A program made the position numbers and the translations under genes. DNA of 45,532 bases from an uncultured Pelagibacteraceae bacterium (GTDB taxonomy: Bacteria > Pseudomonadota > Alphaproteobacteria > Pelagibacterales > Pelagibacteraceae), in the NCBI GenBank assembly GCA_902518595.1, contig CABYGR010000005.1, forward strand, positions 1 through 45,532, given 5' to 3'. This document shows, in pieces, positions 39,053 through 42,358 of this stretch (positions within the stretch are counted from its first letter, which is position 1; every line of letters begins with the position of its first letter). The notes below the pieces were generated by a model. That model was not told the DNA's origin. It ran no database searches and saw nothing but the letters and a program-made list of their open reading frames with translations.

Positions 39053-39375
39053 CCTACATTGTTAATGACAAATGTATTAAATGTAAATTAATGGATTGTG
39101 TAGAAGTGTGTCCTGTTGATTGTTTCTATGAAGGGAAAAATATGCTTGTAATTAAACCGGATGAGTGTATAGATTGTGGCGTTTGTGAACCTGAGTGTCC
39201 TATTGATGCAATTAAGGCAGATACAGAGCCAGGTGGCGAAAAATGGTTAGAAATCAATAAACAATACTCAGAGATCTGGCCTAATATTACTAAAAAAAAA
39301 GATCCACCTACGGATCATGAAAAATATAAAAATGAGCAAAATAAATTTGAAAAATATTTTAAAGAAAACCTTTAG
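39049..39375 (+). CDS. fdxA: 7Fe ferredoxin FdxA
   Basis: [47 protein letters not shown]. Confidence 0.95.
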
Positions 39376-40201
39376 TAATAAAACTAAAAAAAAAGTAAAA
39401 AAAGTTAAGAAAGTAAAAAAAACTAAATTAAAAAAAGTAAAAAAAATTATAAAATCAAAATTATTAAATACTAAAAAAACAAAATTAAAAAAATCAATAA
39501 AGAAAAAAGAAGGAGCAACAGAAGTAAAAACTGACAATTTAAGAATTCCAAAAAGTAATGAGTTAAAACCAGAGATCAAAAAAGTAAAAAAACAAGAAAC
39601 TGAAAAAAGAGAATATAAAGTTAAAGACCATATTGTTTATCCAAAGCATGGCGTAGGTCAAATCACTGAGTTTAAGAAAATTAATATTGGTGGAATTGAT
39701 GTAGAAACTTATATAATTAAATTTGAAAAAGATAAAGCTAACGGTATGGTACCTGTAAATAAACAGTCTCATTTACGTCCTTTAGCAACTATTAATCAAG
39801 TCAATAAATGTATTTCCATATTAAAGAGTAAACCAAAAATCAAAAGATCAATGTGGAGTAGAAGAGCGCAAGAATATGAAGCAAAAATATCCTCAGGTAA
39901 AATATATGAGTTGGCTGAAGTTGTAAGAGATTTAAATAAGGGAGACGATTTAATGGTAGATCAATCATATAGTGAAAGACAACTTTTTGAAAAAGCATAT
40001 GATCGTATTCTTTGTGAATTTGAGATTGTTTTAGACTCTTCAAAAGAGGATACTCAGAGAAAATTAGACAAAGCTCTTAAAAGAAATTTAGCTAATCCAG
40101 AGGCTCAACCCTCTACAATAAAGACAAAAACTTCTACAGCTGAACTTCCTACTGAGGAACCAATTACAGATGTAGATGATGCAGATCCTATAGACGAATA
40201 A
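39317..40201 (+). CDS. carD: CarD/CdnL-family transcription factor with Lys-rich N-terminal extension; start could be 39332
   Basis: CarD domain [48 protein letters not shown]; preceded by [41 protein letters not shown]; 5' end overlaps fdxA. Confidence 0.88.
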
Positions 40202-40206
40202 AAAAA

Positions 40207-40244
40207 AACGCCTCTCACACAAAAAGTTATGAGAAGCGTTTTTT
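40207..40244. terminator. Bidirectional Rho-independent terminator between carD and the small basic peptide gene
   Basis: AACGC-c-TCTCA ... TGAGA-a-GCGTT with T-run on the + strand and A-run before it (T-run on the - strand). Confidence 0.85.
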
Positions 40245-40263
40245 ATAAAAGAATACTAAGTTA

Positions 40264-40347
40264 CTATCTTCTTCTTCTTCTTTTTTTAGCTTTTTTCTTA
40301 GCTTTCTTCTTAGTTTTCTTTGCAGCTTTTTTTCTTCTTTTAGCCAT
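40264..40347 (-). CDS. Small hyperbasic protein, 27 aa (MAKRRKKAAKKTKKKAKKKAKKRRRRR)
   Basis: Read codon by codon on the minus strand, TAG stop at 40264-40266; SD AGGGAG 6 nt before ATG; terminator directly downstream. Not in the ORF track because of length. Confidence 0.75.
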   Translation of the reverse strand: MAKRRKKAAKKTKKKAKKKAKKRRRRR

Positions 40348-40368
40348 CTTTAGCTCCCTTTTTAGTTA

Positions 40369-40389
40369 AACGAATCAAATTGATTCGTT
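40369..40389. promoter_or_regulatory. 21-bp palindrome AACGAATCAA-A-TTGATTCGTT, candidate operator or 5'UTR hairpin
   Basis: Perfect 10-bp arms, 1-nt centre, about 22 bp upstream of the small basic peptide ATG. Confidence 0.55.
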
Positions 40390-40529
40390 ATTAACTTATT
40401 TTTATTTTTTTATATAACTTATGTCAATTCTTTAATTAAAGTTAAAATTTTAAAAATATTATTTTAAAAAAAATTTTTTATAATTTTAATGTGCAAAAAA
40501 GTTAATGTTTATGCGTATAATAAACTAAT

Positions 40530-42269
40530 TTAATAAAGTTTTTCTAAATCTTCTTTATATTTTTCTAAAATTTTTTTTCTTTTTAGTTTTAAAGTTGGTG
40601 TTAACATTCCATTTTCAATAGTAAATTCTTCTTTAATTAACTTAAACTTTTTAACTTTTTCTACTGAAGATAAACTTTTATTTAAATTTTCAATGTAAAC
40701 TTGAATTTCTTTTTCATTTTCATCTATTTTACTTATTACTAGAGCTACTAAATATGTTTTTTTATCCCCATAAACAAAACTTTGTTCAATTTTATCATTC
40801 AAACATAATAAATTTTCAATTTTAGATGGTGAAATATTATCACCACCAAGATTTACTATTATTTCTTTTTTTCTATCAGTTATTTTTAAATTACCTTCTT
40901 TGGTAATTTTACCTATATCCCCAGTGTGTAACCAACCATTTTTAATAACTTCATTAGTTTCTTTTTTCATATTCCAGTAACCTAGCATTACATTTTCCCC
41001 TCTAACCAAGATCTCTCCATCTTCAGCAATTTTAATCTCATTTGTTTTGAAAGGAGGACCTACAGTCTCAATTTTTACTTTTCCTGGAATATTGCAGCTT
41101 ACTACTGGAGAGGTTTCAGTTAACCCATATCCTTGTAGGGTTGGTAAACCTATAGAGTTCAAAAATTCACCAATTTTTTTATCTAAAGCCCCGCCACCAG
41201 AAACAAAAGCTTTTAACTTACCACCAAACTGTTTCTTTATTTTTTTTCTTACTAATAATTCACACAAAAAATTAATAATTTTTTCTTTAAAATTTAGTTT
41301 TTCTTTATTCAAAGTTTTTGTTCCCAATAAAATAGTGCTTTCTATCATTTTTTTTTTAAACCCTTTTTGTTTTGAAAAATTAAAGAAAATTTTACTATAT
41401 AAATTTTGATAAAATCTTGGTACCGCAGTCATGATAGTAGGTTTTGCAACAGACATATTAGTCAGTAGTTTTTCTAAACTCTCAGCATAAAAAACTTTTG
41501 CACCAAGTAGAATTTGAACATATTGGACAGTGTGTTCATATGAATGAGATAATGGAAGCCAAGTTAAAAAAACTGGTTGATCTTTTTTAACTAATGATTC
41601 TAAAATTTCTTGTGCCCCTTCACAATTTGATAAAATTCCACCATGACTAAGCATCACTCCTTTGGGATTTCCTGTAGTTCCCGATGTATAAATTATGCAA
41701 GCCAAATCGGTTCTTCTTAAATTTTTATTATAGTGATCTTTATCGTTAGCAGGCTTTTTAAGATCTTTAATAGCTTTAAAAAAAATATTTTCAAAAAATT
41801 CTATTTTATTATCAAATTCATCTATTGAAATAACTATAGTGTTTTCTTTAATATAATTTTTGATCTTTTTAAATTGTTCATTACTTGAAACAACGCATAC
41901 TTTTGGTTCACAATCATTAATTATATATTTATAGTCATTCTCTGAATAAGTTGTAAAAAGCGGCACCGTTACTCCACCTGCATTCATTATGGCTATGTCA
42001 GAAATTAACCATTCAGGTCGGTTCTCTGATAATAAAATACATCTGTCACCTTTAGAAATAATTTGTTTTAAATAATTTGATAAAACTTTTATTTTAGTAT
42101 TTATATTTCCCCACGAGTAAGTATATGGTCCAGATAATGTATTTGGAAAATTCTTATTTTTAAGTGATATTAAAAAAAGCTCCTTACTTTTTTCAAAATC
42201 ATTTAAAGTTTTTGTCTCAAATTTTTTAAAAAAAAGCTCTACTAAACTGTTTATATGTTTTAATTCCAT
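40530..42269 (-). CDS. AMP-dependent synthetase / long-chain acyl-CoA ligase
   Basis: CIIYTSGTTGNPKGVMLSHGG, TLQGYGLTETSPVVS, GWLHTGDIGKITKEGNLKITDRKKEIIVNLGG. Confidence 0.93.
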   Translation of the reverse strand: MELKHINSLVELFFKKFETKTLNDFEKSKELFLISLKNKNFPNTLSGPYTYSWGNINTKIKVLSNYLKQIISKGDRCILLSENRPEWLISDIAIMNAGGVTVPLFTTYSENDYKYIINDCEPKVCVVSSNEQFKKIKNYIKENTIVISIDEFDNKIEFFENIFFKAIKDLKKPANDKDHYNKNLRRTDLACIIYTSGTTGNPKGVMLSHGGILSNCEGAQEILESLVKKDQPVFLTWLPLSHSYEHTVQYVQILLGAKVFYAESLEKLLTNMSVAKPTIMTAVPRFYQNLYSKIFFNFSKQKGFKKKMIESTILLGTKTLNKEKLNFKEKIINFLCELLVRKKIKKQFGGKLKAFVSGGGALDKKIGEFLNSIGLPTLQGYGLTETSPVVSCNIPGKVKIETVGPPFKTNEIKIAEDGEILVRGENVMLGYWNMKKETNEVIKNGWLHTGDIGKITKEGNLKITDRKKEIIVNLGGDNISPSKIENLLCLNDKIEQSFVYGDKKTYLVALVISKIDENEKEIQVYIENLNKSLSSVEKVKKFKLIKEEFTIENGMLTPTLKLKRKKILEKYKEDLEKLY

Positions 42270-42273
42270 AATT

Positions 42274-42358
42274 TGGTGGGCGAAGAGAGAATCGAACTCT
42301 CACTTCTTGCGAAACACGATTTTGAGTCGTGCGCGTCTACCAGTTCCGCCATTCGCCC
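42274..42358 (-). tRNA. tRNA-Leu(CAA)
   Basis: Reverse complement gggcgaatggcggaactggtagacgcgcacgactcaaaatcgtg...gagttcgattctctcttcgcccacca; anticodon loop CTCAAAA, long variable arm, encoded CCA. Confidence 0.95.

Follow-up and report, generated by a model that had tools for sequence, protein, structure and literature searches.

A conserved gene for a short lysine- and arginine-rich peptide beside carD in Pelagibacter and its possible likeness to histone H1-like tails

Can a reading frame of only 27 codons, composed almost entirely of lysine, arginine and alanine, be a gene, and what might so short a polycation do for the cell that makes it? The question is raised by a locus of an uncultured Pelagibacteraceae bacterium, of which we analysed a stretch of 45,532 nucleotides (the window). 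On the reverse strand, at positions 40264–40347, a frame with its ATG at 40347–40345 and a TAG stop encodes MAKRRKKAAKKTKKKAKKKAKKRRRRR, a peptide with 13 lysines and 7 arginines (74% K+R over the 27 codons), and no other open reading frame of 20 or more amino acids on either strand of the whole 45.5 kb reaches 60% K+R. Having homologues at the same place and bearing the marks of purifying selection, the gene has been conserved in a bacterial group that ranks among the most abundant in the sea, yet it is invisible to the family libraries searched, and even a profile made from its own peptides seldom finds it.

A preliminary description of this DNA, made from the letters, had noted the nearly all-Lys/Arg/Ala composition of the frame and listed a Shine-Dalgarno sequence at good spacing, a palindromic upstream element and a terminator past the stop. 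We recover each of these, and add that the palindrome lies in the mRNA leader and that the terminator is shared with the convergent gene carD, two points which that description had missed. The Shine-Dalgarno sequence, AGGGAG (40354–40359, reverse strand), lies 6 nt 5' of the ATG, and the form AGGGAGCTAAA[AG]ATG is kept across the loci of the genus. The promoter of the peptide gene comprises a TTGACA -35 box (40422–40427, reverse strand) and, 17 nt 3' of it, a probable -10 region, TAAAAAT (40398–40404, reverse strand), with AATAAAAAT largely conserved in the genus; transcription is predicted to start at about 40392. The palindrome AACGAATCAATTTGATTCGTT (40369–40389, reverse strand) begins about 5 nt past the predicted start (40389 versus about 40392) and so sits in the leader, where it can be drawn as the hairpin AACGAATCA-ATT-TGATTCGTT. 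Past the stop, a terminator-like hairpin (40203–40244, reverse strand; 1 found versus 0.1 expected in shuffles) has T runs on both strands, and thus can terminate both the peptide gene and carD. The latter, on the forward strand (39317–40201), is a carD (CdnL) homologue that scores above cut-off for PF21095 and PF02559; its product has an N-terminal extension rich in lysine, and the gene ends 62 bases from the peptide frame. Upstream, on the same strand as the peptide gene and across a gap of 182 nt, lies an AMP-binding (long-chain acyl-CoA ligase-like) gene (40530–42269, reverse strand) that remains a neighbour of the peptide gene in most of the family's loci; since the TTGACA promoter falls inside this gap, the peptide gene is probably monocistronic. 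Between stop and terminator, the 3' UTR (40245–40263) holds TAACTTAGTATTCTTT, a non-coding sequence that is nevertheless conserved through much of the genus and that is able to pair with AAGAAAACTAAG of the coding sequence; in other genera T/C-rich stretches stand in its place.

With carD as the anchor for finding loci (it is present in 97 of 121 relatives), a K/R/A peptide gene convergent to carD was found in all 57 loci with enough DNA in Pelagibacter, the genus of the window, one copy being frameshifted; a 58th locus (L030), which ends at a contig edge, was left out. A pattern of hairpin arm, Shine-Dalgarno sequence and start codon, searched in one genome per species, recovered at least 120 stretches, and all among the matches listed belong to Pelagibacteraceae, Candidatus Pelagibacter or Pelagibacterales, a result that assigns the window to SAR11. 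From 176 loci, in sets that overlap, come 55 distinct peptides of 21–41 aa, save the frameshifted one, built besides the initial methionine from lysine, arginine, alanine, threonine and proline, plus two serines and one glycine. The coding pattern occurs at the carD locus only, and hence in single copy, in 8 genomes of the genus, 7 of them 99–100% complete. The preliminary description had staked its reading on conservation of the frame and ribosome-binding site in relatives, and where the locus is kept the frame, the ATG and the Shine-Dalgarno sequence are kept as well; start, Shine-Dalgarno sequence and stop survive in all but one of the 176 loci. Coding sequences change in length by whole codons, and leaders and 3' spacers have lengths in all three phases; this mod-3 count holds by construction for the coding sequences, so that the argument for the frame rests on the intact ATG-to-K/R-tail layout and on the frameshifted locus L046 as the sole truncated copy. 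In L046 (2839–2889) an extra A in a poly-A run leaves the truncated MPKKRKKAAKKTKKKS, which may reflect true slippage or else an error in sequencing.

Third positions do vary, as the same description had suggested checking. Along minimum spanning trees of equal-length coding sequences we count 78 synonymous and 35 nonsynonymous changes, versus about 26 and 87 expected under a simple AT-biased mutation model with assumed parameters, a ratio of about 0.13 of neutral. The nonsynonymous changes include 28 K/R, 2 A/P and 1 S/T exchanges, and none leads to an acidic or hydrophobic residue. That the gene is translated is near certain on this comparative evidence, and we take coding as established short of detection of the peptide.

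What selection preserves is a layout of three parts: an N-terminal cap, M[AP]K[RK]RKKA; a lysine middle, free of arginine, with alanine or threonine every 3–4 residues; and an arginine-rich C-terminal cap. Arginine makes up 0.27 of K+R in the peptides of the genus as a whole, 0.0 in the middle and 0.71 in the last five residues; AAA is a single-base step from an arginine codon, and the R-free middle is therefore notable, although the peptides are related. Gaps of 2 between small residues are never seen (21% would be expected on shuffling) and gaps of 1, 3 and 4 dominate, these gap and residue counts not being independent, as the peptides are related by descent. The helical moment is marginal (median shuffle p about 0.05). 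Selection keeps frame, charge, layout and rhythm, and leaves the length and the precise sequence to drift freely; this pattern fits a chain that would be disordered alone and able to lie as a helix on a polyanion.

Outside the genus the place beside carD is occupied by peptides of very different size. In the same family these measure 21–24 aa in genera g230 and g231, 31 aa in g228, 36–38 aa in g6 and 34–58 aa in g229, the last carrying AAKKKAPAKKRKPAKK. In a sister family, f2, they reach 60–99 aa and start with MEELKVIFAKA or MEDLKIIFAAA, followed by KKKAAPKKK repeats that resemble histone H1 tails. All of these genes are convergent to carD and have a T-run terminator, and in all of them TTGACA or TTGACT stands about 32–35 nt 5' of [AG]CGAATC, the same spacing as in the genus. 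The shared place and leader make these proteins of 21–99 aa positional homologues through two families of Pelagibacterales, a homology that rests on synteny and the common leader, the composition being too biased, with no alignable domain, for proof by sequence. The carD tree sets f2 beside the family and groups the short-peptide genera g1, g230 and g231 within it (90% SH-aLRT), which suits a shrinkage in the window's genus from a longer protein to the charged tail alone. The outgroups are without the gene, however, and the protein may instead have lengthened in f2 and g229. Indeed, 50 other alphaproteobacterial neighbourhoods of carD (the flanks being limited to 1.5 kb in 30 cases) held no such gene, one frame aside: in a distant alphaproteobacterium (L275, 753–1130) a K/A-rich reading of 125 aa lies upstream of carD and may either belong to carD itself as an N-terminal extension or be an H1-like gene in its own right.

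Conservation extends to the promoter, the 5' hairpin and the terminator shared with carD. Among 109 distinct leaders the -35 box is TTGACA in 105 and TTGACT in 4, again 32–35 nt before [AG]CGAATC, with T or C preceding CGAATC in a few leaders of the genus. Folding of these leaders gives a mean z of -3.5 in the genus and of -2.0 to -5.6 in other groups, the single g231 leader scoring -1.2. Hardly any change is seen in the left arm, [AG]CGAATCA; the right arm varies with pairing kept, being TGATTCG in the genus, GATTTGTTT with G-U pairing in g230, TTATGTGAT in g6, TTTAAGTGAT in g228, TTTAAGTGA in g229 and GTGATTC or TGATTC in f2, and the first pair within the genus is A-U, G-U or, once, G-C. This pattern argues for a hairpin formed in the mRNA leader, the left arm of which is under a further constraint at the sequence level. 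The exact palindrome has a single site per genome (20 of 26 genomes), always adjoining carD where carD coordinates were compared, and is therefore not a regulon site. A different reading takes the GAATC and GATTC that flank the hairpin loop as two GANTC sites, through which CcrM and GcrA would place the peptide gene under cell-cycle control. GANTC is methylated in Pelagibacter (PMC9516812), GcrA is found in 23 and a RAMA-domain (CcrM-type) protein in 24 of 25 near-complete genomes of the genus, and the first GANTC is present in all leaders read. The second, however, is lost in g6, g228, g229, g230 and g231, where the hairpin persists with another right arm, and the variable loop length suits RNA better than an operator of fixed spacing. 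A role for the GANTC pair is thus unlikely, and the double-site reading was rejected as the main one; cell-cycle control of the gene is rather improbable overall, some room for a CcrM role at the left arm being left by the match of GAATC to GANTC, the methylation and the presence of GcrA and a methylase of the RAMA-domain family.

Pfam gave no match above cut-off for the window's peptide or those of loci L059, L070 and L069, nor did NCBIfam for the window's peptide or those of L059, L197 and L069; PHROGs held no match to the peptide, and Rfam at gathering scores found only tRNAs across the whole window. No PDB chain, ribosomal chains included, matched up to E 10, a search in which short biased queries have little power. 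A degenerate coding pattern run across the class had hits in 2 of 289 genomes, both from the genus of the window, being too strict for relatives with other repeats, and among viral contigs 36 matches to Shine-Dalgarno sequence plus ATG included none encoding a similar peptide. This is a real small gene below the usual thresholds of gene callers, as the preliminary description had supposed, and of profiles: out of 10 genomes in which the locus or a homologue is present, a profile built from ten peptides finds 2, a compositional filter being the likely reason. In the part of the literature covered, we found no paper naming the peptide or any SAR11 H1-like protein.

How, then, should such a peptide be classed? 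Protamines are very short, almost wholly basic, arginine-rich sperm proteins; the peptide is like them in shortness and basicity, but its middle is lysine without arginine, and we claim no relationship. Chlamydial Hc1 and Hc2 and other bacterial histone H1-like proteins are lysine/alanine-rich nucleoid proteins named after the H1 tail, from which the peptide differs in being several-fold shorter, in matching no Pfam or NCBIfam model and in giving no sign of developmental expression. Small basic ribosomal peptides of the bTHX type, about 20–30 aa long and strongly basic, are similar in size and charge, whereas the length of the peptide is not fixed and it has no PDB match. H1-tail composition, that is, K/A/P repeats with few acidic or hydrophobic residues, is found fully in f2 and g229, and in the window's peptide for K and A, not P. 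Of the label "protamine/H1-like" in the preliminary description, the H1-like half is accordingly borne out through the longer positional homologues with K/A/P repeats; the protamine half is not, arginine occurring only among the opening residues and in the C-terminal cap. A further likeness is to AlgP (AlgR3) and PhaF of Pseudomonas, which have KPAA-repeat, histone H1-like C-terminal tails (PMC9239181). These share with the peptide a low-complexity K/A/P polycation of variable repeat number, and the f2 and g229 relatives (KKAAPKKK, KKAPAKKRKPAKK) come close to them in composition. In contrast, AlgP and PhaF have a structured N-terminal domain (helical in AlgP), while the peptide is the charged stretch only, with no tandem KPAA array; the AlgP tail measures about 195 aa versus 21–41 aa here, and peptides of the window's genus mostly lack proline and have an arginine cap. 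We would place the peptide as an extremely short H1-tail-like bacterial protein, a membership by analogy and synteny only.

KPAA-repeat peptides and a fragment of the AlgP tail bind DNA (PMC9239181), and this, together with the resemblance of the longer relatives to AlgP and PhaF tails, makes nucleoid binding the best reading. We infer DNA to be the target, as we infer every step beyond translation. The strong promoter and hairpin-capped mRNA would supply the peptide in high copy; disordered alone, it would bind nucleic acid phosphate by charge without choice of sequence, perhaps folding into a helix upon binding, and would condense or counter-ion the SAR11 nucleoid alongside HU and IHF (2–3 proteins of HU/IHF type per genome), much as K/A/P tails do within the larger proteins AlgP, PhaF and histone H1. 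In the window's genus only the charged tail of the protein would have been retained. We somewhat favour, by analogy, a constitutive-looking, single-copy, monocistronic gene for a minimal H1-tail-like polycation of this kind. A bolder version is put forward only tentatively: an H1-like nucleoid protein reduced to a bare tail of 21–30 residues that would act as a gene-encoded polyamine and general condenser of SAR11 DNA, its lysine-only middle with the Ala/Thr stripe helical on DNA and its leader hairpin linking synthesis to its own free level.

Against this reading it must be said that RNA, ribosomes and polyphosphate are equally good polyanions, and that charge alone would not call for a strictly lysine-only middle. 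A ribosome- or RNA-associated peptide, sitting as a polycation on rRNA or coating mRNA in the manner of bTHX and aiding assembly or stability, would be of suitable size and charge compared with small basic ribosomal proteins and would suit the probably strong expression (consensus -35 box, hairpin-capped leader). Yet the length drifts over a range of 21–99 aa and the repeat number is unconstrained, unlike what a subunit fitted to a ribosomal site would show, the repeats of the relatives resemble H1 tails instead, and the PDB search returned no ribosomal chain, short biased sequences being hard to match; we regard this reading as unlikely. Constraint on composition only would also be expected of a general counter-ion, a gene-encoded polyamine that balances the charge of polyphosphate or nucleic acids and, like AlgP, positions granules. 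AlgP, which bears a KPAA tail, associates with polyphosphate granules, and these require it to be evenly spaced (PMC9239181), but it acts with an N-terminal helical domain that the peptide lacks, and the neighbourhood has no link to polyphosphate genes, leaving this reading quite improbable. That the transcript is a structured small RNA, made of 5' hairpin, A-rich body and terminator around an incidental frame, would accommodate the leader hairpin and terminator kept through structure and the pairing of the 3' UTR with the coding stretch, but it is scarcely credible against the whole-codon length changes, the strong third-position excess and the near-universal start, Shine-Dalgarno sequence and stop.

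Should the peptide indeed pack DNA, few encoded nucleoid proteins would be smaller, and the finding would matter for the way in which SAR11 compacts its chromosome inside a very small cell. Since natural forms of 21–99 aa occupy a single synteny block, how short an H1-like tail can be is a question open to direct test. The window contains another H1-tail-like stretch adjoining the peptide gene, namely the lysine-rich N-terminal extension of its CarD (39317–39600, about 95 residues), and matches between this CarD and the loci often start past that extension. Further upstream, a tRNA-Leu (caa) gene (42274–42358, reverse strand) lies between the ligase gene and a DedA-like gene.
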